Positions 2,705-16,181 of a stretch of 22,780 nucleotides of DNA are shown one piece after another (position 1 is the first letter of the stretch; each line of letters starts with the position of its first letter). The position numbers were made by a program, and so were the translations under genes. The stretch spans positions 1 through 22,780 of the IMG/VR virus record IMGVR_UViG_3300027833_000234. One strand, written 5' to 3'. Under the pieces are notes generated by a model. It did no database searches and was not told the origin of the DNA. It was given only the letters and a program-made list of their open reading frames with translations. Source of the DNA: a virus.

Positions 2705-3622
2705 TTACACAAATTTTACGTTTAATTTGTCTTCCCAGTCGGGATTGAGGTCTGAGTAGGTATATATTTCAAGGGTATTCTCGAAGTCTTGACCACTCTC
2801 TACCATATATCCTAGAGCGATATCCATCATGGGTTCTTCGATTTGGTATATGATATCCAACTTACGTAACCTACGAATACCCCTCAAAAGGAATTTCTCA
2901 TATAGTGGGTAGATTGGGGGTGCAAAGGATAGAGAACTCAGAGTCTTGGCACTCATGAGTGCTGGTAGGATGTTCTTAACAAAAGAATTATGATGGTGAT
3001 ATGACATACCATATCCAGCATGTTTATCTTTATACAGAGACACGTATTCGGTTGTCACATCTAATGTATTTCTATGTGATGACATTCTGTCTTCGAAGGG
3101 GTTCTCTTGTTGACTCCAGAACTTGTCGGTGTACATAAATGCAATATCATCGGGTGTTACTTCCCATGGCTGAATATCGTGGGTGGGCATACCGTTTATC
3201 TCACTTGCAAGTGAATTGCTTAGTTTCACACCTTCGTTTAGTTTGAACAGTTCACTTATAATGTGGAAGTTTGGTAAATGGTGATGTATGTCAGGAACGT
3301 GTCCCACTCTGTTTTGTGGTAAAAACTTCAACTCCTCTTCAGACATTGTTTGGATAAAATCGAGAACAACTGTCTTTTCTAGGGTTGACTTCCATAACTT
3401 CGCATCGTTTGTCCAAAGGGGTAGTCCCAGTTCAAGACACGCAAACACAGAAACAAGTTGTAATACACCATTCTTAGGAATAAGAACTGTTGTTGTCTCA
3501 CCTTTACTAACACCCTTGGATATGAGTAGATGTTTCACTTTGTTGATGGCTTGAAAAAAATCTTCCCTATTCAAACCATCGATTCGAATGTCTTCTCTAA
3601 TTAGGTGTCTATTTAATAACAT
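2705..3622 (-). CDS. Truncated, degenerate adenylate-forming (ANL) paralogue
   Basis: 305 residues from ATG 3622, which lies within the last codons of the SGNH gene (14-base overlap). It is a paralogue of the product of 4402-5637: both open with a LLNR/ILNR start, share an INKxKxLL helix and a FAC-x-ELGL segment, and later share a His-rich loop followed by LPALM. In ANL enzymes (acyl-CoA synthetases, peptide-synthetase adenylation domains) the phosphate loop is a Ser/Thr/Gly-rich motif; here the matching place (about residues 158-172) reads DDIAFMYTDKFWSQQ, with the loop lost. The protein ends just before the YGS-type motif, so the ATP-binding core and the mobile C-terminal domain are missing. 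The frame is intact over 900 bases. Seen: homology and loss. Inferred: a pseudo-enzyme, perhaps a partner or regulator of the complete copy. A decaying gene is the alternative. Confidence 0.75.
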   Translation of the reverse strand: MLLNRHLIREDIRIDGLNREDFFQAINKVKHLLISKGVSKGETTTVLIPKNGVLQLVSVFACLELGLPLWTNDAKLWKSTLEKTVVLDFIQTMSEEELKFLPQNRVGHVPDIHHHLPNFHIISELFKLNEGVKLSNSLASEINGMPTHDIQPWEVTPDDIAFMYTDKFWSQQENPFEDRMSSHRNTLDVTTEYVSLYKDKHAGYGMSYHHHNSFVKNILPALMSAKTLSSLSFAPPIYPLYEKFLLRGIRRLRKLDIIYQIEEPMMDIALGYMVESGQDFENTLEIYTYSDLNPDWEDKLNVKFV

Positions 3623-4424
3623 CTTCAAATACTGTTGTTAAATACTCTGCATACTCTTTATGAGATTGTTCGTCTGTGTGGCCATGTTCTTTCAATGGAC
3701 GGTCTCCTTGTTTGTCCCATAACGTTTCACCATCAACTAATCCAAGTTGACATTCTGGTCGTATGAAAGCAAGGGTATCAAGTACCCAATTTCTCCACTG
3801 AACCACTTGTCCACCGCAGTTGTGTTCGTGTTTTTTGATTCTTTCCATACAGAATTTTAATTGTTTACGTACAAGTGAATGGAAGGTTCCCTGTACAACT
3901 TTAATGTCCATCGCATCACATAACTTCTGTATGGTTGCCTGCATGGTCAATTGATGTGTCAGTGGTGTTCCAAATGTGGAGACGGCCATATCCACGACTC
4001 TTGGAACTCTATCAAAAGAAAGTTTTTTATTATATATTTCGTTTCGAGACCACTTCCTTGCGATTGTAGGACTCATAGAAAGTTCAAGGTCTTCGGCACG
4101 ATTCTCGTGCCATTGGGTCATAGAAATCTGACGTGGAACCTGTGGCAACCGCTCATCACGAACTTCTAATAATTGTTCCTTTCTTAGTGGGTCAGACCAA
4201 AGTATCACTAGGTGTGAGGGTTTCTCTTTAGTTGTCAAATAGGTAATTACATCACGAAATATTTTCTCGTTACAATTACCACACCATGCAAGGTTAGTAT
4301 ATTCAACACCCAGATTGTTTGCAAGTTGATGTGTAAACGTGTGCGGGTAATGTGTCGGTGGTTTGTCCTCATACCCTTCGAGTTCATCGCCCCAGACAAA
4401 ACTACATCCGTTTGTCAATAACAT
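3609..4424 (-). CDS. SGNH/GDSL-family hydrolase or acyltransferase
   Basis: 271 residues from ATG 4424. The blocks of the SGNH superfamily can be followed: block I near the N-terminus is TNGCSFVWGDEL with candidate nucleophile Ser8, block II is CGNCNEKI (Gly49, Asn52), block III is around HLVILWSDP (residues 71-79, Trp in place of the usual GxN Gly), and block V near the C-terminus is HTDEQSHKEYAEYL with His255 as the likely catalytic base. Such enzymes hydrolyse or transfer acyl esters; phage members of this divergent set have no proven substrate that I know. It overlaps an ANL gene at each end (23 and 14 bases), so the three are very likely made together. An ester-forming or ester-removing step on the product of the ANL enzyme is the natural reading, but it is inference. 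Confidence 0.75.
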   Translation of the reverse strand: MLLTNGCSFVWGDELEGYEDKPPTHYPHTFTHQLANNLGVEYTNLAWCGNCNEKIFRDVITYLTTKEKPSHLVILWSDPLRKEQLLEVRDERLPQVPRQISMTQWHENRAEDLELSMSPTIARKWSRNEIYNKKLSFDRVPRVVDMAVSTFGTPLTHQLTMQATIQKLCDAMDIKVVQGTFHSLVRKQLKFCMERIKKHEHNCGGQVVQWRNWVLDTLAFIRPECQLGLVDGETLWDKQGDRPLKEHGHTDEQSHKEYAEYLTTVFEDVIK

Positions 4425-5637
4425 CTAAATATCCTCTCAACTGTTCAAAGTCGATTTTGGTATCGTGAGAAAATGGAGTCATATCAAAATCATCTGGTAC
4501 ACCCATCTCTTTTAGACATACTGGACGATTACTCATTAAAATATATTCACCATCAAACAACTCTATCTTATCGTCCATGTACCTTGGTTCGTTCCAGAAT
4601 GGGGATTCTACCTTCATACGTCCATTCTCAAGGGTTGTCGTATAAAAGTCATCGCATAGTACTCCTAATGAATTAGGAACATGTATTGTATCTTTGTCTA
4701 CACGGTTTATTAATAAGGGGATAGCGGTATCAATACTACCGTAATGTGACTGAAAACAAACATTGTATTCTTTCGCAAGGTCAACAAAGTCTCGGTCTAG
4801 TACGAATCCACACATATTAATGTTTACAGTTCTTTTGAATGGCCCCGCAAAACTCTCTAGAAAATCAAAGAGAACATTCTTATTAGGCATCATAATGTTT
4901 GATGGAGGATTGTCCGCTAAATCTTTCAGACCCTTCAGATAATCGTAATCTTCTTCGTGTGACCCATCATGACCCAGTGCAAAAGAACTATGTGAGTATG
5001 CATTCATAAGTGCGGGTAATAGATGCGTCATGATTGCGGATGCATGATGTAGATTCCTAGAATGAATAACCTTTGCATCATGTCCAAACCAAAATATATC
5101 TATATTACGTTTGGCGATTGCCATTGTTTCTTGGTGTGAAAACAATATTGGTCTAGATGCTTTGGTTGTCCCACTGGTAGAACTTATTAAGAATGTGTCT
5201 TCTGGATATACTAACTCACCTTTGATATTTCTATCTGAGGAATCTTCCATGACATCAATACCAATACCACCGTATCGTTTTATCATCTCATCATGGAGAC
5301 CGTCATAAACCCCAGTAGTATCTTCTTCAGAACTGTAGATATGAAAGTCACTCGGGCCATGGAGTGCAAGTTTAGTAAATGGTAGGGATTCTATTGTTGC
5401 GGGACTATTGAGGATAAAGACTTTCAATCCTAGTTCTGCACATGCAAAGATAGAAGCGATATGTTTTATATCAACTACCATAATACCGATAGTTACTATA
5501 TCACCCTTTCTTGCACCCGCATCCCAGAGTAAATTCTTTATCTTGTTTATTTCTAAACAGACGGTTTTTTTACCGACCTTATCAAATACAAACCCACGTC
5601 CGTGAGAAATTGCGTCACGATTTAATATGTTTTGCAT
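4402..5637 (-). CDS. Adenylate-forming enzyme (ANL superfamily), short form
   Basis: 411 residues from ATG 5637. ANL enzymes activate a carboxylate as an acyl-AMP. The phosphate loop is clear at residues 153-163 (STSGTTKASRP, matching the SSGTTGxPK type), followed by a His-rich LHHAS segment near 196-200 and an adenine-pocket motif HYGSIDT at 298-304 (the YGxTE motif, with Asp for Glu). The C-terminal part is short: FDGEYILMSNRP replaces the usual hinge motif and only about 40 residues follow, so the swinging domain with its catalytic lysine is missing or much reduced. It may adenylate its substrate, but the transfer half of the reaction probably needs another protein. It overlaps the GIY-YIG gene upstream and the SGNH gene downstream by 23 bases each. 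The substrate cannot be read from sequence. Confidence 0.8.
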   Translation of the reverse strand: MQNILNRDAISHGRGFVFDKVGKKTVCLEINKIKNLLWDAGARKGDIVTIGIMVVDIKHIASIFACAELGLKVFILNSPATIESLPFTKLALHGPSDFHIYSSEEDTTGVYDGLHDEMIKRYGGIGIDVMEDSSDRNIKGELVYPEDTFLISSTSGTTKASRPILFSHQETMAIAKRNIDIFWFGHDAKVIHSRNLHHASAIMTHLLPALMNAYSHSSFALGHDGSHEEDYDYLKGLKDLADNPPSNIMMPNKNVLFDFLESFAGPFKRTVNINMCGFVLDRDFVDLAKEYNVCFQSHYGSIDTAIPLLINRVDKDTIHVPNSLGVLCDDFYTTTLENGRMKVESPFWNEPRYMDDKIELFDGEYILMSNRPVCLKEMGVPDDFDMTPFSHDTKIDFEQLRGYLDVIDKRM

Positions 5638-6019
5638 GAATCTTACAACCTATAAATTCATTATAGTATTCATCACTCAACAAAACATCATATTCAAATT
5701 GTAGTTTCGCTTCGTAGTATGAACACTCACCTTTAGTACGACACAGTCTTAGAACAGTTCTCTCGAACTCGTGGCCCCCTTCATACAGGGTTTTTACCTG
5801 TTCGGACGAACCATAGTAGTTCCGCCAGTCGGATTGAACCCGTGTTCTTTTGCGTCTTTTTCTTGTTTTTGTAACAGGGAGTATCTTGGGTTTCCAGAAA
5901 AATTTCTTACCAATATACTTTTTACCAGTACTCAACTCAGTTAAACAGTAGACGAATCCTTGGTATGGTTCCAAGAACTCGTCTTCTGGTTCAAACTCTT
6001 TATCTTCATATATCCACAT
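5615..6019 (-). CDS. GIY-YIG-type phage endonuclease
   Basis: 134 residues from ATG 6019. A GFVYCLTELSTGKKYIGKK segment (residues 21-39) gives the two-strand GIY...YIG core in its phage form (FVY...YIG), followed by a Lys/Arg-rich stretch, WRNYYGSSEQV and an ECSYYEAKLQFEYDVL helix whose glutamate fits the metal-binding Glu of the family. The tail CKIHAKHIK is also shared with a widespread T4-like phage family annotated as putative homing-type or SegE-like endonuclease. These enzymes cut DNA; in phages they act as free-standing homing enzymes or help degrade competing DNA. It follows the zinc-ribbon gene by 19 bases without a clear ribosome site. Confidence 0.8.
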   Translation of the reverse strand: MWIYEDKEFEPEDEFLEPYQGFVYCLTELSTGKKYIGKKFFWKPKILPVTKTRKRRKRTRVQSDWRNYYGSSEQVKTLYEGGHEFERTVLRLCRTKGECSYYEAKLQFEYDVLLSDEYYNEFIGCKIHAKHIKS

Positions 6020-6038
6020 GTTGGTATATATGTGTTTT

Positions 6039-6161
6039 TTATGATATCGTAACTCCGCACATAGGACAGTACGATGGTTCTTCTTCCGAATCTTTTACAA
6101 GTACTTCGGTCTCAGTTTCGCAGAGCGCACATTCCAATGTGTAAGTTTCGTCCTCTTCCAC
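6039..6161 (-). CDS. 40-residue zinc-ribbon protein
   Basis: A very short gene starting at a GTG (6161-6159) that shares one base with the nrdB TAG stop (TAGTG). The product has two CxxC knuckles: C11-A-L-C14, then about 17 acidic residues, then C32-P-M-C35-G, the usual rubredoxin/zinc-ribbon pattern. It is strongly acidic and ends ITIS-like (GVTIS). Small zinc ribbons beside nrdB occur in related phages by my recollection; their role is unknown. The paired CxxC motifs, close packing and translational coupling to nrdB make it a real gene despite its size. It could bind nucleic acid or serve as an accessory of the reductase; neither is shown. Confidence 0.8.
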   Translation of the reverse strand: MEEDETYTLECALCETETEVLVKDSEEEPSYCPMCGVTIS

Positions 6162-7150
6162 TAGGCAGCACAACCAGTTCCATCCAAGGAGCACACTTCT
6201 TCTGACCAACCCCAGTCACCTTCCATTCCATTCACGGAATATTCAGTCACACGTTTCTCAAAGAAGTTGTCATGGGACGCACCATTCAGTACCCAGTCCA
6301 ACCACGGTAGTGGATTGTCCTTTACACCGAACTTAGGTTTCATACCCAGTTGTAATAGTCTACGGTCTGCAATGTGACGGATGTATTGTTTCACATCTGT
6401 CTCAGATAGACCTTCGATATCTCCAGACTTATATGCAAGTGTAATGAATCGGTCTTCTAGTTTGACAGCGTTACGTGCCATCTGATAGATTTTAGACTTC
6501 AACTCATCGTTCACAATACGTGGATGTTCAGCCGTAAACTCACGGAATAACTTTGCATTACCTTGTACGTGGATAGTCTCATCTCTGATAGACCACTCTA
6601 CAATCGTACCCATACCTTTCATCTTACCGAAACGTTGGAAGTTCAACAACATTACAAATGATGCGAACAATGACATACCTTCGTTGAATACAGATTGTGC
6701 AAGTACCAGTGCAAGACCTGTTTGGGTGTTAATGTCACCCTCTTTCATAAAGTCAATCTTGTCTGCCATCTCTTTATATTCCATGAACGCAGAATGTTCT
6801 TCGTCTGGTAATCCCAGTGTGTCATTCAACAATGCATATGCACGTTGGTGTACACCTTCACGGTTTGCAAATGAAGACAACATGTTACGAACTTCGTTGT
6901 TCTTAAACTTAGGAATCAATAACTCGTGGTAGTTTTCTCCTACCTGTACGTCACTCTGTGTAAACAGACGTAGTACCTGTGTAATGAACTCTTTCTCTTC
7001 TGCACTCAGTTTGGTTCTCCAGTCTTGAATGTCTTCGGATAGTTCCGCTTCATCTTCGACCCAATGAACCTCTTCATGTTTCTTTGTTAATTCCACCGCC
7101 CAAGGGTAGAGGAAAGGTTTATATGTTTTGCTAAATTCTAATAATGCCAT
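6161..7150 (-). CDS. nrdB: Ribonucleotide reductase class I, beta subunit
   Basis: 329 residues, a normal length for the beta subunit, which holds the di-metal centre and radical that drives reduction of ribonucleoside diphosphates to deoxy forms. The ligand set is complete: Asp67, Glu98 and His101 (REGVHQRAY), Glu157 (FNEGMS), Glu191 and His194 (RDETIH). Tyr105, four residues after His101, sits where E. coli NrdB has the radical Tyr122, so a tyrosyl-radical type is likely. The protein ends CSLDGTGCAA, unlike the usual acidic/aromatic tail that docks on the alpha subunit. It begins 3 bases after the nrdA stop and shares its transcript. Its product supplies dNTPs for phage replication. Confidence 0.96.
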   Translation of the reverse strand: MALLEFSKTYKPFLYPWAVELTKKHEEVHWVEDEAELSEDIQDWRTKLSAEEKEFITQVLRLFTQSDVQVGENYHELLIPKFKNNEVRNMLSSFANREGVHQRAYALLNDTLGLPDEEHSAFMEYKEMADKIDFMKEGDINTQTGLALVLAQSVFNEGMSLFASFVMLLNFQRFGKMKGMGTIVEWSIRDETIHVQGNAKLFREFTAEHPRIVNDELKSKIYQMARNAVKLEDRFITLAYKSGDIEGLSETDVKQYIRHIADRRLLQLGMKPKFGVKDNPLPWLDWVLNGASHDNFFEKRVTEYSVNGMEGDWGWSEEVCSLDGTGCAA

Positions 7151-7153
7151 TTG

Positions 7154-9142
7154 TTATCCCTCGCAAGCACGACATTCATCGTCTTCGTCTGTTTCTATTG
7201 GTTTGTTTAAATATTCCATCAACTCTTCGTACCCACCGACATATTCACCTTCGATGTAAATTTGTGGTACTGTTTTTACTTTACGTCCTGTTACCTCAGC
7301 GGCAGTCTTACCAATTTCTTTCAAGTCAATCTTGTCAAATGGTATTCCTCTTAACTTCAGTTCTTCCATAGCCATAGAACAGAAAGGACAATCTGCTTTA
7401 CTATAAACTATACTACGGGTATCACCCGCAAGTGCAACACGTTCTACCTTTTCAGATACATTCTCTGCACGTTGTTTTGCCTCTGTACGTAAATAGTACA
7501 GACCTTTCAATCCTTCTTTCCATGCCTTCAGATGCACCTTATTCACATAAGATTTCTCTGCACCAGATGGGAAGAATAGATTTACCGACTGACCTTGACA
7601 GATATACTGTTGACGTTCAGCTGCATGGGTAACAACCCAGTTTTGGTCTAATTCATCCGCAGTCCTAAAGATTGCCTTCTCACCTTCAGTAAGGAATGGT
7701 AAGTGTTGTACCGAACCTTTGTTGGTAATGATAGATGTCCAATTAGACTCATTGTTCTCACCCTTCTCATTCAAGAGTCGAGTAAGGTATTTATTCTTTA
7801 CGAGAAATGAACCAGCACGTGTACGATGTGTATATGCATTTGCCTTCAATGGTTCAATAGATGGACTCGTTGATAGAATCACTCCACTGGATGCATTTGG
7901 GGCGATTGCCAACAGATGTGAGTTTCTTCGTCCACTTCCAATGCCGTCAGGATATTCCCCACGTTCTTCAGCAAGTTGTTCAGTTTCTTTAACTGCTTCG
8001 GACTTAATGTGGTCGAACAAGGTTCGGTTGATTTCTCTTGCTGCTTCTGACTCCCATGCGACTCCGTGCCTTTGTAGAAGGGAGTGGAATCCCATTGCTC
8101 CCAGTCCAATACTTCTCTCTCTTTCTGCGGAATATTTTGCACGTGGGATTGTGTCGGGGGCTTCGTTAATGAAATACTCAAGTACGTTATCGAGCATCCT
8201 AACAATATCCCGAACAATAGTTGTATCTTTCCATTCATCGTAGTATTCTAAGTTCAGACTCGACAAACAACACACCGCAGTCCTATCATCGGACGTTGGT
8301 AGGTGGATTTCATTACAGAGGTTCGAACCGTGAATCTTTAGTCCTTTGTCTTTTAATGGTTGAGGTAAACTATCATTTGCAGTATCGATGAAGTTCAGGT
8401 ATGGTTCACCTGTTCTAAAACGAATCTCAAGAATACGTTCCCATAACTTACGTGCGTTAACAGTCTCTTTAACCGTTTCGTCCTTGGGGTCACGTAGGTC
8501 GAAATCACTATTCGACATAACCGCTTCCATAAACTCATCGGTAATATTAATTGCATTGTGTAAGTTTAGTGCTTTACGTTGCACGTCACCTGTAGGAATT
8601 CTCATGTTAATGAATTCTACAATATCTGGATGCGATATATCCATATACGCAGCATAAGAACCTTTACGGGTCTTACCCTGTCTATACGCAATCATGTCTG
8701 CATCAACTGTGTGTAGGAATGGCATAGGGCCAGGCGCAATGTCTGAAACAGTTCTTACGTCAGACCAATGACCACCAACACCACCACCATATACGGATAA
8801 CCACCGTAGTTCTGAAGAGTGTCCAATCAAACCTTCGAGTGTATCTGGTACGTAGGTAAGGAAACAAGAGATTGGCATTCCTTTGCTCTTCTGGTCGTGA
8901 CCATTAGGTGCATTGGATAGAACAGGGGAGGCAAACATGAACCACTTATTTGATACGTAGTTGTACAGACGTTGGGCGAGTTCATCGTCCATCTCATCTC
9001 GGTACTTACTCCATGCTTTACTTGCTCTTGCGAAACCCTCTTGTGGACTTTTTTCATAATCATTTAAATAGAAATCTTTAAGCATACCTACTGCATATTC
9101 TGCTAGTAGACTATCCTTCTTTTTATCAAGTTTGAGGGTCAT
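7154..9142 (-). CDS. nrdA: Ribonucleotide reductase class I, alpha subunit, with fused glutaredoxin
   Basis: 662 residues from ATG 9142. A TTG at 9235 would extend the frame, but it lies upstream of the -10 box of the promoter at 9215-9243, so it is not used from that transcript. Catalytic features: Cys93 (ISCF) and Cys291 (AVCCLSS) as the redox pair, Asn274-Leu-Cys276-Asn-Glu278 as the active-site loop with the thiyl cysteine, and Tyr549-Tyr550 of the radical pathway. The N-terminus goes straight into the catalytic domain, so the ATP-cone for dATP shut-off is absent. A complete glutaredoxin domain occupies residues about 573-646 (redox site CPFC at 585-588, TVP at 624-626, GGYEEL), and the usual C-terminal reducing cysteine pair follows it (ECRAC, 657-660). 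The enzyme thus carries its own reductant. It leads the operon with nrdB. Confidence 0.97.
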   Translation of the reverse strand: MTLKLDKKKDSLLAEYAVGMLKDFYLNDYEKSPQEGFARASKAWSKYRDEMDDELAQRLYNYVSNKWFMFASPVLSNAPNGHDQKSKGMPISCFLTYVPDTLEGLIGHSSELRWLSVYGGGVGGHWSDVRTVSDIAPGPMPFLHTVDADMIAYRQGKTRKGSYAAYMDISHPDIVEFINMRIPTGDVQRKALNLHNAINITDEFMEAVMSNSDFDLRDPKDETVKETVNARKLWERILEIRFRTGEPYLNFIDTANDSLPQPLKDKGLKIHGSNLCNEIHLPTSDDRTAVCCLSSLNLEYYDEWKDTTIVRDIVRMLDNVLEYFINEAPDTIPRAKYSAERERSIGLGAMGFHSLLQRHGVAWESEAAREINRTLFDHIKSEAVKETEQLAEERGEYPDGIGSGRRNSHLLAIAPNASSGVILSTSPSIEPLKANAYTHRTRAGSFLVKNKYLTRLLNEKGENNESNWTSIITNKGSVQHLPFLTEGEKAIFRTADELDQNWVVTHAAERQQYICQGQSVNLFFPSGAEKSYVNKVHLKAWKEGLKGLYYLRTEAKQRAENVSEKVERVALAGDTRSIVYSKADCPFCSMAMEELKLRGIPFDKIDLKEIGKTAAEVTGRKVKTVPQIYIEGEYVGGYEELMEYLNKPIETDEDDECRACEG

Positions 9143-9214
9143 ATTACTTTTCCATAGAGTATAGTTTTTTAGGGGGTAATAGTATCTATAACCCCAGTGT
9201 TTTTCAGTATTGTA

Positions 9215-9243
9215 ATTATACCCCGTCAGGGGCAAAAAGTCAA
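9215..9243 (-). promoter_or_regulatory. Near-consensus sigma70 promoter for nrdA
   Basis: On the minus strand TTGACT (9243-9238) and TATAAT (9220-9215) are separated by 17 bases. The start would be near 9208, giving a leader of about 65 bases before the nrdA ATG at 9142. The spacer holds a small dyad, CCCC-TGAC-GGGG, between the two boxes, where it could serve as an operator or a minor hairpin. This separates the nucleotide-metabolism operon from the late gene just upstream. Confidence 0.85.
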
Positions 9244-9245
9244 GC

Positions 9246-9707
9246 TTATTTTGACCTTTGTTTATCTATCGCTCTAGAACCGAACCAGAACGAGATAATT
9301 GCGGCAAAGATTGCCTTGGTGTCACCATCCCACAACAAACCCAGTGAGTCTGCCAGAGGAACACCACTTGCGAGTGCTTCTCTCAATAGGGTGATTTCAA
9401 TTGCACAAAACAATCCAAAGAAACAGTATGTGATTACAGGACGTACAGACTTCTGTAGACCCGCAATAATACCAGTACCTTGGTTGATTGAGATGTCATG
9501 TTGAATCAGTCGGTCATGCTCTTTATCAGCACCCATCTGTTCATACATTTTGATTTCATGGTCATAACCCTTTGCACGGAGTTCTGCCATCTTTTCCATC
9601 TTTTCTAATTCGTGTTTGTTGTTTGACTTTGTTTTAAAGTGGTCTGTGATTGCGGGTACAACTGAACCCCCAAAACCTAGCACACTACCTAATAATCCAC
9701 TTAGCAT
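9246..9707 (-). CDS. Holin-like protein (3-TM type)
   Basis: 153 residues from ATG 9707, sharing one base with the stop of the upstream small gene (TAATG). Layout: a hydrophobic N-terminus (residues about 2-20, GLLGSVLGFGGSVVPAI), a charged coiled-coil section (KHELEKMEKMAELR and on), a second membrane segment in VRPVITYCFFGLFCAIEITLL and a third in IFAAIISFWFGSRAI. The VRPxITYxFFGLF and IFAAxxSFWFGxRA motifs are those of the three-segment holin family described from gene transfer agents and phages, which permeabilise the inner membrane at lysis. No endolysin gene is next to it in this window. It is the last gene of the late unit that begins at 10486. Confidence 0.8.
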   Translation of the reverse strand: MLSGLLGSVLGFGGSVVPAITDHFKTKSNNKHELEKMEKMAELRAKGYDHEIKMYEQMGADKEHDRLIQHDISINQGTGIIAGLQKSVRPVITYCFFGLFCAIEITLLREALASGVPLADSLGLLWDGDTKAIFAAIISFWFGSRAIDKQRSK

Positions 9708-9874
9708 TATTTACTCCAACGTTTTCTATTTTCAATAAACCTTTTTACTATTTCGGGCTTCTTTTTCTTCTTTTTCTTTCCTAGATGAACAGGGACAGTT
9801 TCACTGTCATCACCAGTACCAACTACGGAACCAGTGCTTGTCATTTCTTCGTAGAACTTATTAAAATTTCTCAT
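9707..9874 (-). CDS. Small basic phage protein with capsid-targeting-like N-terminus
   Basis: 55 residues from ATG 9874, in an ATGA junction with the upstream structural gene; its TAA overlaps the holin start. The N-terminus MRNFNKFYEE has the aromatic-rich form ending in Glu9-Glu10 seen on several putative internal head proteins in this window. A Gly/Ser/Thr/Asp linker follows, then a run of seven lysines and a basic tail (VKRFIENRKRWSK). I do not recognise a family. The length and strong basic charge fit a small DNA-binding head component, but the neighbouring holin makes a lysis-linked role possible. Its reality rests on the perfect overlaps at both ends. Confidence 0.7.
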   Translation of the reverse strand: MRNFNKFYEEMTSTGSVVGTGDDSETVPVHLGKKKKKKKPEIVKRFIENRKRWSK

Positions 9875-10473
9875 CGGGTAATCTCCCCAGTTGTGAAGTA
9901 CACGTACTGTTTAGAGTTTTCGTGTATTCCTCTGTAGATGTCCAGACCAAGAACCTCATCAATAGGTTTTGCATCTGACTCCAAAATTCTTATTTTATCG
10001 TCCTTCTTTACAATATCGTCACATTTCGTTGCGGTCACCGTATCGTGTCTCATACGATAAATGCCAGGCGACAGTTCTTTGTCCTCAAGCATATACCAAG
10101 AACTTTCTTCTGCAAGGACATCTAAGATATCAATACCAGTCTCTTCATGGATTTGCATTATTCGTTCATCACTCAATGTGCCATGTTCTTTAATAAGGGC
10201 AAGAGCAGCACCATACCTTGCAACAACAGACTGACCGCCAGGCACTTTTGCCATTAGACGTTTCAGATTAAATACGAGTCGATGAAAGGGGGTGTAATGC
10301 GAACGATAAGCTTCACGGTCATCAACACGGAGAGTTGTAAACTCCTTGTTTCGTGTACCGTCTGCGTTGATAATACCTTTCTTGTATGCGTCAGTCTTAT
10401 CGAATGGAGTGACTAACAGTTTCAAGAAACGTATCGTATAGACTAAGTCTGCTGCTGATTTTAATATTCCCAT
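9871..10473 (-). CDS. Conserved phage structural-type protein
   Basis: 200 residues from ATG 10473. The sequence MGILKSAADLVYTIRFLKLLVTPF, then FDKTDAYKKGIINADG, DDREAYRSHYTPFHRLVFNLKRLM and KVPGGQSVVARYGAALALIKEHG belongs to a family I recall from T4-like cyanophages and pelagiphages, usually sitting among late genes, without an assigned function. The second half has ITxEESSWYxLEDxELSPGIYRMRHD and a final FTTGEITR strand. No catalytic motif is visible. A perfect T4-type late promoter octamer ends only five bases before the ATG and no ribosome site is seen, which fits late expression with an unusually short or absent leader. Confidence 0.75.
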   Translation of the reverse strand: MGILKSAADLVYTIRFLKLLVTPFDKTDAYKKGIINADGTRNKEFTTLRVDDREAYRSHYTPFHRLVFNLKRLMAKVPGGQSVVARYGAALALIKEHGTLSDERIMQIHEETGIDILDVLAEESSWYMLEDKELSPGIYRMRHDTVTATKCDDIVKKDDKIRILESDAKPIDEVLGLDIYRGIHENSKQYVYFTTGEITR

Positions 10474-10503: not shown

Positions 10504-11904
10504 TTATATGTTTTGCGAGATATCTCTGTACCAAGTTGCACGAAAAATGTTGTGAAACATGCCTTCATATACCGCATATAATTGGTCTTTGTGTGGTGTC
10601 TCACACTCAAAGGCAAACTTGTTCAGTATCTTTCTCTGTATGGGCGAGTCCATAGAGTCACCCAATAGGAAACTCTTAGGTGTTTTAAAGACCTCGTGAT
10701 ATATCCTTCTATCGTTATATAGGGATGCGGTAAGTACATCGTTGTTGGCACTGATAGAACGAGTGTACAACTTAGGTGTCAAGAGTTTTAACATGTTGTG
10801 TTCTGCATTCTCCCAGTCGATGTCCTCAGTGACCCACTCCTCGAACCATTCATCTAGATAGGTCTGTGTGGTCTTGTGTGTACCCAGTGTATAACATGCA
10901 CCATAATGATGCGTCTTCTCATCAATAATATTTTGAATTGCAGCTTCTATATACCTCTCACCCTTATGTTCTACCAATAACATGTGTAGGTGTGGAATCA
11001 AATCACGGAAGAACATCTCATCTCCGTTAACTCCATACATAACAATATCAGGTTTTATCTTACAATCCATTACCTGTTTCATTGTGGGTATAATAGATGC
11101 CCATCTGGTAGACCCATCTTTTAAATACTGTAGTGTGTGTTCGATTGCTTTGTTGGTATCAAAGGTTTCGAATGACACGTCAGGAAACTTTGCAGCCTGA
11201 ATCTGTTTATATTTTAACCCATCATCTCCCGCATGGCAAGGTAACATTGTATAACAATACTGTGGGTCATGGTAGAAGTACTGCGATTGAACTGCGGAGT
11301 CGATTCCCTCACTCAAAGAGATAAACCTGTTTTTATAACGAGACCTAATTAGATTGGAGTGTTGAGTCATACATTGGTGTATGTAATCAGTAAGTGCATC
11401 GATGTCAGTCCACTTATCTTCCTCAAGTGCTTTCTTACAATCACCCACGTAGTCGTAGGATGGAATGAATGAGTTGATATGGTCAAAGAATGTTGTGTTC
11501 TCCTCCACACCAAACTCACGAGACTGTGGGTCTTTCTGACCATACTCCAAGTAGGTCTTGGTGATATCTGACTTATGACACGTCATATATGGCACGTAAT
11601 TGGATATCTCTGTACCGTACTTACGTGCAAGGAATATCTTATGGTTCTGGAAGTAGTCAACCGATATCTCAAAACTGTCTTTGGTCAGTTTGATTGCAAA
11701 GAAGTTTCCATTCTCTTCATTGAAACTCCAACGTTCACATACATCTTCGATGTCACCTTCAATAAGGTAACCAGAATATACGACAATATAGTCTGGCCCT
11801 TTCCAGACATTCACCAGTTCGTCATGGTAATAACACCATTGACCATACTGTGTGTATTCACGTTTCTTGAACTTCGTAGGGTCTTTGCAAATAAAGAATC
11901 TCAT
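10504..11904 (-). CDS. Asparagine-synthetase-like ATP-pyrophosphatase
   Basis: 466 residues from ATG 11904 in an ATGA junction with the upstream Cys-rich gene. The C-terminal two-thirds is the asparagine-synthetase (AsnB) synthase domain: the pyrophosphate loop SLSEGIDS at 196-203 (canonical SGGxDS with one Gly changed to Glu) and GVNGDEMFF at 291-299 (the GxGGDExF type). The N-terminal 100 residues keep the shape of the glutaminase half (GNFFAIKLTKDS, then KIFLARKYG) but lack the catalytic Cys at position 2. It therefore probably cannot take ammonia from glutamine, as in beta-lactam synthetase and lasso-peptide cyclases, which use the same fold to adenylate a carboxylate and close an amide or ring. 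Substrate unknown. It closes a three-gene overlapping set with two CxxCxxCC proteins. Confidence 0.82.
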   Translation of the reverse strand: MRFFICKDPTKFKKREYTQYGQWCYYHDELVNVWKGPDYIVVYSGYLIEGDIEDVCERWSFNEENGNFFAIKLTKDSFEISVDYFQNHKIFLARKYGTEISNYVPYMTCHKSDITKTYLEYGQKDPQSREFGVEENTTFFDHINSFIPSYDYVGDCKKALEEDKWTDIDALTDYIHQCMTQHSNLIRSRYKNRFISLSEGIDSAVQSQYFYHDPQYCYTMLPCHAGDDGLKYKQIQAAKFPDVSFETFDTNKAIEHTLQYLKDGSTRWASIIPTMKQVMDCKIKPDIVMYGVNGDEMFFRDLIPHLHMLLVEHKGERYIEAAIQNIIDEKTHHYGACYTLGTHKTTQTYLDEWFEEWVTEDIDWENAEHNMLKLLTPKLYTRSISANNDVLTASLYNDRRIYHEVFKTPKSFLLGDSMDSPIQRKILNKFAFECETPHKDQLYAVYEGMFHNIFRATWYRDISQNI

Positions 11905-12359
11905 CGTAGTCTTAGTGTTCCCTGTTTGGTGTGTAACTCTACCTGTAGTTGTCTACCTTCACTTACAAGTATCTCTTCAACCAGTTCATCCAGTTTTCGT
12001 TTGTTGTTATCATATTGAATCTCTGGTGGTAATGTCTTGTCCATTGACAGGATACCAACCTTACCGTTCCACTTCTGTACATGTGCAACAAAACCAAAGT
12101 TCTTTGGTCTATATTTATCTTCTAAGTCGTGTTCAATATAGGAACAAAAGAACTCATCACATATTCTTGGTTTGTCTTCTTGAATAGAACAACCCGTATC
12201 ACATAGTTTATTACAGGTACTCCACGCACCGTAATCTACACCATAGAACTCTGCTTCATTATATCTGTCTGCATCCTTCCATGCACCAGTATAACCCATG
12301 ATTTCACAACAGACAGTACAGTCACCACAACGTGATTCTGTAGGGATAATCTCAGACAT
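11901..12359 (-). CDS. CxxCxxCC metal-binding protein, paralogue B
   Basis: 152 residues from ATG 12359, overlapping the end of paralogue A by 8 bases. The N-terminal CxxCxxCC motif (CGDCTVCC, Cys11, 14, 17, 18) is followed by CNKLCDTGCSIQEDKPRICDEFFCSY. This is the layout of the YkgJ/UPF0153-type 'putative zinc- or iron-chelating' family, where a second cluster ending in 'Y/x-x-x-RPxxCRxF' completes the metal site. The rest is a strand-rich domain with a DKTLPPEIQYDNNKRKLDELVEEIL helix. Members are thought to bind Zn or Fe-S; some act with modifying enzymes. It is coupled to the asparagine-synthetase-like gene by an ATGA overlap. Reaction and partners are not known. Confidence 0.82.
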   Translation of the reverse strand: MSEIIPTESRCGDCTVCCEIMGYTGAWKDADRYNEAEFYGVDYGAWSTCNKLCDTGCSIQEDKPRICDEFFCSYIEHDLEDKYRPKNFGFVAHVQKWNGKVGILSMDKTLPPEIQYDNNKRKLDELVEEILVSEGRQLQVELHTKQGTLRLR

Positions 12360-12807
12360 AAAAACGTTGTTCTCCAGCTGCGGTACATACCCTAACCATA
12401 GGCACGCTAACCGACCACATTTCTTCTGCGGTCTCTTTCATAGTTATAATGTTTGTATAGTTATCTTGGAAGAATTGTTCTGAGGTAAATTTATGTTTCA
12501 GAGATTCATTGGGAGTCACATCTAGATAATGAACATTTTTATGTGTTCGTAGGTTAGTAACAAACCCAACTCTTTCGGGAATATATTCTTCGGGTAAATC
12601 AGATTCTACATAGACACACTCGTAATCAGAACAAGACTGCGGTTTGGTATCATATATAGTGCATCGATTATTATCACAGAGTTTATTACATCTACCCCAT
12701 TCATATCGGATATCTAAATTGATTAGTTGTATCTGATTATTATTGAGAGCTCCAAAAGACTTACAACAAGAATAACAGTCACCGCATCGGTCAATCTGTT
12801 GTTCCAT
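12352..12807 (-). CDS. CxxCxxCC metal-binding protein, paralogue A
   Basis: 151 residues from ATG 12807, one base overlapping the stop of the upstream gene (TAATG). It has the same cysteine plan as its downstream neighbour: CGDCYSCC (Cys8, 11, 14, 15), then CNKLCDNNRCTIYDTKPQSCSDYECVY, and both share a GFV...K/R strand in the second half. The tandem pair arose by duplication within this locus or its ancestor; the two have since diverged strongly outside the cysteine blocks. Ten cysteines in all, nine placed in the two cluster blocks, suggest a multi-Cys metal site. Function unassigned; YkgJ-type family membership is by motif. Confidence 0.82.
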   Translation of the reverse strand: MEQQIDRCGDCYSCCKSFGALNNNQIQLINLDIRYEWGRCNKLCDNNRCTIYDTKPQSCSDYECVYVESDLPEEYIPERVGFVTNLRTHKNVHYLDVTPNESLKHKFTSEQFFQDNYTNIITMKETAEEMWSVSVPMVRVCTAAGEQRFYV

Positions 12808-13175
12808 TAGGATTGGGAAATCTGTCTTAGTGCCTCGACTACTTTAGAATCCATTTGAATATTGGTATATTCATGGTTCTTGATTGCTTTGAGGAATATG
12901 AGGAATGGTTTGAGTACACCCCAATGTTCGAGTTCGATTTTCAGTTCTAGGATATCAAGTCCTGGCTGAATACCGAATACATTAAATATTACTATGAGGT
13001 GGTTGAGGATGAGACGTTCCGATAGAACATCGGTGTCACGATATCGATTGAGTAATCTTTTCACATACTTAAATTTCTTTAAGTCTTCGAAGAACTCTTC
13101 GCTATCAATACATTTGGGATTATGGTAATGCTGAGCAGCATATACCGTAAGATTATCTTTTGTCAGTTTCATCAT
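12807..13175 (-). CDS. Conserved phage protein (DUF7207-like)
   Basis: 122 residues from ATG 13175 (a second ATG follows at 13172). Starting further upstream would place the start inside the hairpin at 13189-13206. The sequence MMKLTKDNLTVYAAQHYHNPKCIDSEEFFEDLKKFKYVKRLLNRY, then LSERLILNHLIVIFNVFG and LEHWGVLKPFLIFL, matches a common all-helical family of T4-like phages near the head genes. The role is unknown to me; the DUF number is from memory. It is the first gene after the hairpin and is preceded by a near-match late promoter (TATACATA), so it probably starts the transcript that also reads both CxxCxxCC genes and the asparagine-synthetase-like gene. Confidence 0.78.
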   Translation of the reverse strand: MMKLTKDNLTVYAAQHYHNPKCIDSEEFFEDLKKFKYVKRLLNRYRDTDVLSERLILNHLIVIFNVFGIQPGLDILELKIELEHWGVLKPFLIFLKAIKNHEYTNIQMDSKVVEALRQISQS

Positions 13176-13180
13176 ATAGT

Positions 13181-13188
13181 TATGTATA
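13181..13188 (-). promoter_or_regulatory. Likely late promoter TATACATA (one mismatch)
   Basis: This octamer differs from TATAAATA at one base and sits five bases before the ATG at 13175, the same geometry as the perfect octamer at 10479-10486. It directly abuts the hairpin at 13189-13206. The mismatch lowers certainty. Confidence 0.5.
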
Positions 13189-13206
13189 AGGGGGATTTCT
13201 CCCCCT
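13189..13206 (-). terminator. Terminator-like GC-rich hairpin
   Basis: A 7-base-pair stem (AGGGGGA with TCCCCCT) closes a GAAA loop on the minus strand, a stable tetraloop. It lies after the stop at 13215 and before the next gene. No T run follows, so it may attenuate, protect a 3' end or mark a unit boundary rather than end transcription by itself. Confidence 0.5.
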
Positions 13207-13214
13207 CTCAAAAA

Positions 13215-15250: not shown

Positions 15251-15940
15251 TTAAGTAATTATAGTGTTATTTATAAGACTTCTATTCTTGAGTCTATAAC
15301 TTTCTATCTTATTTTGCCAGTTACTTGGTATCTTCATACCCAGATATTCACTGACTCTCTTTAATTCTGTCTTGGTATCTTCCTTGTTATTAAAAAATAA
15401 CTCACAAGGGTCAACTAATAACATGGAATGTTCTATGGGTATTGTATCCATCCACATCGCAAACATCTCTGCCTGTGATTCCCACGGTCTATTCCAAAAC
15501 TGGTCATGAGCAAGAATACCATCCTTAATCATGTTCATACCAGCTTCTCTGTCCTCATCCCTAACTAACTTACACTTTGCAAGTTGTTGAGTATAATCCA
15601 GACTTTCTCTGGTTTTTGAGAGGAACACAATAGTCTTCGTCTCATCCCAATCGTTCCAACAATACTCTGTCCAGAACTCTTGATTGATTGGAAATCCATA
15701 CCCGTGGTCTAGTCTAACATTCCACAAGTCTTTATTCCATTCTGGTTTCTGAACTTCTCTAGGATTCCCTCTGGTCACTTCTATTTCATGTGACTGGTAA
15801 TCTTCTCTCTTCAAAAACCATCTTTCTATGACGGGGTTGTTTATTAATTCTTTGGTTGCAATCTCTTCAAGTTCTTGTAAGAGTCCACCAAAAAATTCAC
15901 CACCAGCCCCACCACGATAAATTACATTAAGTACCTTCAT
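15251..15940 (-). CDS. Sulfotransferase-like P-loop protein
   Basis: 229 residues from ATG 15940; a GTG at 15967 would overlap the cupin gene by 41 bases and add residues unlike the family. The N-terminus MKVLNVIYRGGAGGEFFGGLL has the glycine-rich loop after a strand that in sulfotransferases binds the phosphosulfate donor. The C-terminal part (MLLVDPCELFFNN, then LKRVSEYLGMKIPSNWQNKIESYRLKN) matches the 'strand, D-P/y, then L..xLG' end of that fold. Such proteins are frequent in marine phages and have no proven acceptor; capsid or cell-surface glycans are the usual guess. It overlaps the cupin gene by 14 bases. The late promoter of the next gene lies inside its 3' end. Confidence 0.7.
   Translation of the reverse strand: MKVLNVIYRGGAGGEFFGGLLQELEEIATKELINNPVIERWFLKREDYQSHEIEVTRGNPREVQKPEWNKDLWNVRLDHGYGFPINQEFWTEYCWNDWDETKTIVFLSKTRESLDYTQQLAKCKLVRDEDREAGMNMIKDGILAHDQFWNRPWESQAEMFAMWMDTIPIEHSMLLVDPCELFFNNKEDTKTELKRVSEYLGMKIPSNWQNKIESYRLKNRSLINNTIIT
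15268..15275 (-). promoter_or_regulatory. T4-type late promoter TATAAATA
   Basis: Perfect octamer on the minus strand, inside the 3' end of the sulfotransferase-like gene. Transcription would begin near 15262, leaving a leader of about 30 bases before ATG 15233, the usual layout for a late gene. It would drive the structural run 14919-15233 to 13215-13562. Confidence 0.75.
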
Positions 15941-16181
15941 ATATTCTAATAACCAAATCACCTTCACCTTTTATTACACGGTGATATTCCATCTTATCAA
16001 TACTATAACTATGTCCTTCTAATAAGTCCATAGGATGTTCATTGTCTATCTGTAGTTGCCACCCATATCCTTCCATGACATGGATACTTCTGTCTTTAGT
16101 ATCTCTATGCCAAATCAAGTCTTCCTCTTTGACATCCTCTCTAAAAACCCTTATCTTACCATTACGAACCTTCAGTTCCAT
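15927..16181 (-). CDS. Small cupin-like protein
   Basis: 84 residues from ATG 16181, preceded by GGTGA at good spacing; an upstream TTG at 16196 has no support. The protein is nearly all short strands. RVFREDVKEEDLIWHRD, then RSIHVMEGYGWQLQIDN and SYSIDKMEYHRVIKGEGDLVIRIYE give a single cupin barrel with candidate metal ligands His25, His34, Glu37 and His67. Similar small cupins occur in T4-like marine phages. Function unknown; a metal-dependent or sugar-binding role is possible. It lies between the DUF5872-type gene (8-base gap) and the sulfotransferase-like gene (overlap), in a set that could act on the virion surface. Confidence 0.75.
   Translation of the reverse strand: MELKVRNGKIRVFREDVKEEDLIWHRDTKDRSIHVMEGYGWQLQIDNEHPMDLLEGHSYSIDKMEYHRVIKGEGDLVIRIYEGT

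Follow-up and report, generated by a model that had tools for sequence, protein, structure and literature searches.

Beta-lactam and carbapenam synthetases, like the enzyme described here, lack the glutaminase cysteine of asparagine synthetase (AS). In nitrilobacillin biosynthesis, the AS-like enzyme PesC acts on a peptide together with iron oxygenases, and the Y368F replacement in its Glu363-Tyr368 dyad abolishes activity (PMC13060819). The flagellin methylase FliB binds a [4Fe-4S] cluster through CX4CX3CC, a motif related to CxxCxxCC, and the authors of that study point to the CxxCxxCC family PF03692 (PMC8598068).

The window, that is, the whole 22.8-kb stretch of DNA analysed here, comes from a T4-like marine phage that is represented here by metagenomes alone; the isolates with the best-matching backbone genes belong to the family Kyanoviridae. 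A sequence-only reading had described three serially overlapping genes at 10504-12807, and the open reading frames (ORFs) bear this out. All three lie on the minus strand; the gene for CxxCxxCC protein 2 overlaps that for CxxCxxCC protein 1 by 8 bases, and the latter overlaps the gene for a large protein by 4 bases. The CxxCxxCC protein 2 gene also shares 1 base, at 12807, with the stop of the upstream gene. The features are as follows.

9871..10473, minus strand: F4 gene (phrog_18642), which borders the cassette site downstream; similar in its N-terminal part to T4-type 61.1
10504..11904, minus strand: predicted AS-like enzyme without glutaminase Cys (the large protein), 466 aa (ORF and AlphaFold/structure alignment; no sequence-profile match)
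11011..11034, minus strand: putative second ATP/Mg loop, G-V-N-G-D-E-M-F, residues 291-298 (E296 invariant; hhalign register against AsnB)
11296..11316, minus strand: PP-loop, L-S-E-G-I-D-S, residues 197-203 (S198, G200, D202 and S203 invariant in 26 homologs)
11887..11889, minus strand: codon for Cys6, which is invariant (homolog alignment; at residue 2, Arg or Lys and never Cys)
11901..12359, minus strand: CxxCxxCC protein 1, 152 aa (ORF; 8 of 20 homologs match PF03692, best E 1.9e-7)
12306..12329, minus strand: CxxCxxCC motif of protein 1, residues 11-18 (conserved Cys)
12352..12807, minus strand: CxxCxxCC protein 2, 151 aa, an optional paralogue (PF03692 E 0.076; phrog_9155 E 1.2e-8)
12763..12786, minus strand: CxxCxxCC motif of protein 2, residues 8-15 (conserved Cys)
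12807..13211, minus strand: F1, a DUF7207 gene, upstream flank of the cassette site (Pfam PF23837 E 1.6e-38; adjoins F4 in cassette-free phages)

Purifying selection acts on all three genes of the trio (dN/dS 0.08-0.22, where synonymous sites are unsaturated), and because the arrangement also recurs in about 37 distinct IMG/VR sequences, the trio is more than a chance association. The cassette is real and under selection, and it has no name in the libraries searched.

Predicted fold and active site of the large protein

No convincing match to the large protein was found in Pfam, NCBIfam, PHROG or PDB sequences, either with the protein alone or with a ten-homolog profile. PF00733 did not match the window protein at E values up to 1 and was absent from the hits of 10 homologs, and the profile of the large protein recovered no AS among PDB sequences. 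A search for the trio elsewhere, as the sequence-only reading had proposed, yielded about 37 distinct IMG/VR relatives of the large protein (39-100% identity), no homologs in 50,697 GenBank phage records and no bacterial source in a scan of GTDB genomes.

The AlphaFold model of the large protein, built with 26 sequences (mean pLDDT 92.2, pTM 0.92), aligns end to end with the AS fold. Its best structural match is carbapenam synthetase (Z 20.8, 386 aligned, rmsd 3.4; Foldseek and VIA-align), and other full-length matches include beta-lactam synthetase (Z 20.2), TsnB9 (19.3) and human asparagine synthetase (19.1), with AsnB (1CT9) at Z 20.0 over 367 residues; the next fold after the AS group is LarE, at Z 8.7. 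Alignment with hhalign to a four-member AS alignment gave E 0.007 at a probability of only 5%, in the expected register, with SLSEGIDS placed on LLSGGLDS of AsnB and GVNGDEMF on GEGSDEVF. The model thus supports an AS-type two-domain fold, Ntn-like plus ATP-pyrophosphatase. It also indicates that the earlier recognition of an AS-like enzyme from two short loops was right, though sequence statistics alone are insufficient for it. The large protein is apparently a divergent, phage-only member of the AS fold.

The active site was read from 26 aligned homologs, with residues mapped by motif register and not by coordinates. Residue 2 is Arg in the window copy and Arg or Lys in 26 of 26 homologs; the protein therefore has no Cys nucleophile, as the missing Cys2 of the earlier reading implied. 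Cys6 is invariant but does not lie at the N-terminus. At the glutaminase site, SGY stands in place of NGE, with S, T, C or Q in the first position and GY invariant. The ATP-pyrophosphatase loops singled out from the sequence, SLSEGIDS (residues 196-203) and GVNGDEMFF (291-299), are both kept. The second Gly-Gly position of SGG is Glu or Asp. Position +5 from the invariant E296, the slot of the dyad Tyr (the PesC dyad being read as the motif GxGxDExxxxY), is Asp in most homologs and Lys or Glu in a few, and never Tyr. Since SGG has become SEG and the dyad Tyr has become Asp, Lys or Glu, the chemistry may differ from that of AS. Residue 292, which we take from the motif register to be the slot of the catalytic Tyr of beta-lactam synthetase (GYG motif), is Val, Ser or Gly across the homologs.

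The predicted protein therefore resembles AsnB and human ASNS in its end-to-end two-domain architecture, and AsnB in the order of the PP-loop and second loop, and departs from the AsnB family in having no Cys nucleophile, SGY for NGE, SEG for SGG, a dyad without Tyr and no PF00733 match. The beta-lactam and carbapenam synthetases (1JGT, 1Q15) are its best structural matches (Z 20.2-20.8); unlike these, it has Val, Ser or Gly in the catalytic Tyr slot, no accompanying clavulanate or carbapenem pathway genes, and a phage context. PesC and the present family both include an AS-like enzyme found alongside iron-dependent oxygenases, but PesC uses glutamine and keeps its Glu-Tyr dyad, and the large protein, judged by its residues, does neither. 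The analogy drawn earlier with beta-lactam synthetase and lasso cyclases consequently holds for the fold and the loss of Cys2 and fails at the catalytic Tyr, which is absent. No precursor, leader peptidase or RRE of the kind known from lasso cyclase and PesC systems was seen in the conserved neighbourhoods, though a precursor gene may lie at a distance. As these defining features are absent or were not found, we would not class the protein with the asparagine synthetases, the beta-lactam synthetases or the lasso cyclases, even if its mechanism may be that of an AS-type ligase.

The CxxCxxCC proteins and their coupling to the enzyme

The pair of divergent CxxCxxCC paralogues was correctly recognized: both small proteins carry the motif, and they are 37.5% identical over 88 aa. 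Each has eight conserved Cys, the motif plus four further residues, the invariant set being C11, C14, C17, C18, C49, C57, C67 and C72. From their sequences they are classed as PF03692-type, a family matched by 8 of 20 cassette homologs, with the copies in the window below the Pfam cut-off. The eight-Cys layout is common to the cassette proteins, the PF03692 CxxCxxCC/YkgJ proteins and FliB; the cassette proteins differ in being phage proteins of about 150 aa whose window copies are sub-cut-off, with no sign of a FliB-type methylase. The structure model of CxxCxxCC protein 1 (mean pLDDT 65.5) has low confidence around the Cys motif and found no fold match (best Foldseek E 0.39; best VIA Z 3.7). 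We therefore infer metal binding by analogy: the proteins probably hold Fe-S or zinc.

The claimed coupling of the enzyme to these proteins is upheld by adjacency of a CxxCxxCC gene to the large-protein gene in 27 of 35 distinct IMG/VR loci. The second copy is optional, since a single CxxCxxCC gene is frequent among the relatives and a few loci lack one beside the enzyme (these include L040/L043, L018-L021, L068 and L070; the L070 contig has a CxxCxxCC gene near its other end). The coupling spans at least two phage backbones, the T4-like one of the window and another whose upstream gene is very large (L060, L071); in L017 the order is reversed, with the CxxCxxCC gene on the other side of the enzyme. 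Adjacency alone does not establish that the proteins share a substrate, because CxxCxxCC genes also adjoin Dam methylase and glycan genes. Inspection by eye of bacterial neighbours of CxxCxxCC genes revealed no consistent partner.

Two further arrangements were observed. Two cyanophages, Syn30 and S-8S29, have a DNA adenine methylase gene whose end shares 4 bases with a CxxCxxCC gene (L082 5075-6528; L239 3517-5504). Tandem CxxCxxCC pairs also occur without an AS-like enzyme in unrelated phages or prophages, close to genes that appear to serve packaging or the capsid (L299 2366-3540; L123, L143, L144, L136).

An exchangeable cassette site

In Phage C48C1, Melnitz-3 and HTVC008M (in the last of which F1 was assigned by position), F1 directly adjoins F4; of the isolates seen, C48C1 is the nearest. 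We surveyed 79 IMG/VR loci anchored on F4; because several of the contigs nearly duplicate one another, the counts stand for loci and not for independent events. The site is empty in 50 loci, whereas 17 have one or two CxxCxxCC genes followed by the AS-like enzyme, one has the reversed order, three seen in full have two CxxCxxCC genes followed by a 2OG-Fe(II) oxygenase, and eight are cut by a contig end. The two enzymes occur together in none of the 79 (0/79), and no other inserts were found. The alternative enzyme matches PF13759 (E 2.6e-9 and 9.3e-11), the family of 2OG-Fe(II) oxygenases of T4-like cyanophages, and is unrelated to the AS-like enzyme in family and chemistry.

Pairs of close relatives locate the exchange precisely. 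To either side of the site, L190 and L192 show 97-98% identity, and what distinguishes them is the cassette, a block of about 1.85 kb; identity between L110 and L190 is 94-96% outside the site, where one has the oxygenase and the other the AS-like enzyme; and the same swap is repeated in L182/L185 and L202/L200. The trio is thus one allele of an exchangeable cassette, the alternatives being CxxCxxCC genes with a 2OG-Fe(II) oxygenase, or nothing. This exchangeability, absent from the sequence-only reading, is more interesting than the AS similarity alone. A role in interactions of the phage with its host or with other phages would fit such fast exchange at one site among near-identical phages.

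The cassette is flanked by T4-like backbone genes, mostly uncharacterized, with ribonucleotide reductase downstream. The trio had been placed inside a late structural block, a view that these neighbours do not establish, and the late promoter motif TATAAATA is not above chance (3 versus 1.26). Short open frames, which the earlier reading had suggested inspecting for a precursor peptide, include none specific to enzyme-bearing loci in the conserved neighbourhoods. The small ORF at 9707-9874 (minus strand; MRNFNKFYEEMTSTGSVVGTGDDSETVPVHLGKKKKKKK...), downstream of F4, was rejected as a precursor, as it is a conserved backbone gene present with or without the cassette.

Other candidate partners were also considered. 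A B12 radical SAM gene lies two genes downstream of the enzyme in L066, L065, L067 and L071. Radical SAM was rejected as a general partner, the type of about 320-360 aa being part of the backbone; the B12 type, of 540-590 aa, accompanies the enzyme in a minority of its lineages and is found in 0 of 12 records without the enzyme, which are too few to decide. A general link to a carrier protein was likewise rejected, an ACP preceding the enzyme in L070 alone (1 of 20 records). At 5217-7527 of that contig, the ACP (PF00550, over cut-off), a 2OG-oxygenase-like gene (by eye, no Pfam match) and the AS-like enzyme lie in a row. Elsewhere, a B12-type radical SAM gene overlaps a 2OG-oxygenase-like gene (by eye) by 4 bases (L323 3304-6125), and another is found among apparent tail and head structural genes (L322 3179-4909).

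Proposed function and alternatives

The gene set suggests an uncharacterized chemical tailoring step. We assign a probability of about 55% to the reading that the trio is an exchangeable tailoring cassette, in which an ATP-dependent, carboxylate-activating and probably amide-forming AS-like enzyme works with Fe-S or zinc partners. The N-terminal domain would be a dead glutaminase shell and the C-terminal domain an ATP pyrophosphatase. The large protein would bind ATP-Mg, adenylate a carboxylate and release pyrophosphate, and the acyl-AMP would then be attacked by a non-glutamine amine (a substrate amine or free ammonia) to give an amide. ATP-dependent carboxylate adenylation requires the least assumption, because of the predicted AS fold and the conserved ATP loops. 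One or two CxxCxxCC proteins would carry an Fe-S cluster or zinc and could prepare or present the substrate, or serve as redox or binding partners; as they pair with an AS-like ligase and also with a 2OG oxygenase, their role may lie in defining or preparing the substrate and not in any one reaction. Free aspartate is a less probable substrate than a macromolecule of the phage or its host, be it a protein side chain, a peptide or a glycan.

A broader and more tentative version, which we rate as clearly less likely than not, is that one adaptor serves alternative catalysts: Fe-S CxxCxxCC proteins would bring to a single macromolecule, of phage or host, either a glutamine-independent AS-like ligase or a 2OG-Fe(II) oxygenase (in other phages a B12 radical SAM enzyme is a possible third). 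If so, marine T4-like phages would swap interchangeable, previously unknown modifications as single cassettes.

Tailoring of a glycan or small molecule is an unlikely alternative, in which the enzyme would amidate or acylate a sugar acid or amino sugar of tail fibres or the host surface with the CxxCxxCC proteins as accessory factors. An AS gene of phage S-SCSM1 lies inside a glycosyltransferase and fucose cluster, a CxxCxxCC gene of S-SRM01 in a sulfotransferase/glycosyltransferase/epimerase cluster (L125 likewise), and a glycosyltransferase-like gene (F22) just upstream of the cassette site in some relatives. However, no sugar gene is conserved alongside the cassette from lineage to lineage, and the S-SCSM1 enzyme retains Cys2 and is therefore of a different type.

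It is less likely again that the AS fold has been repurposed as a non-catalytic ATP-binding protein, a nucleotide sensor or inhibitor acting, for example, against host defence. Anti-defence genes are often found at hypervariable sites, and the cassette site is hypervariable between near-identical phages. Two putative catalytic residues changed together, D295N and K439N/R, in one clade (L018, L020, L021, L068, L070 and L071; support 100/98), K439 being the likely equivalent of AsnB Lys449 as judged from the surrounding sequence, and L060, sister of this clade, keeps both residues. Yet dN/dS within the clade is near 0.09-0.14, so that purifying selection persists and the chemistry there may be altered, a point that also weighs against the tailoring reading. 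Against the repurposing reading, the window's own clade retains D295, K439 and the whole PP-loop.

A RiPP-like role, in which the enzyme would close a ring or form a lactam on its own precursor peptide as lasso cyclases do, is very improbable: the fold and the loss of the glutaminase Cys are the same, and 2OG-type and radical-SAM enzymes, also known from RiPP pathways, occur around the enzyme family, but no lasso-type B protein (leader peptidase/RRE) was seen in the conserved neighbourhoods, and the one conserved small ORF is shared with cassette-free phages.

The phages constitute a natural experiment, near-identical genomes having the enzyme, an alternative enzyme or none at one site, and the substrate question is directly testable through such sets by comparative mass spectrometry. 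The large protein represents, by its predicted fold, a sequence-invisible branch of the AS group, recognisable by structure alone and phage-only in these searches, and the CxxCxxCC proteins, whose function is largely open, are pointed to as partners of carboxylate-activating and oxygen-using enzymes.

Other genes of the window and its relatives are recorded here as minor observations. Two short AMP-binding (ANL-type) ligase-like genes, at 4402-5637 and 2705-3628 (minus strand), both overlap a possible SGNH-like gene at 3609-4424; their matches to PF00501 are weak and cover the N-domain only. Relatives such as L024 have a desaturase-like gene and a further ANL-type ligase-like gene upstream of DUF7207. 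A protein encoded at 15251-15967 (minus strand) appears sulfotransferase-like by eye, with no Pfam or PHROG match. The ribonucleotide reductase large subunit at 7154-9235 (minus strand) has an apparent glutaredoxin-like C-terminal domain with a CPFC motif.
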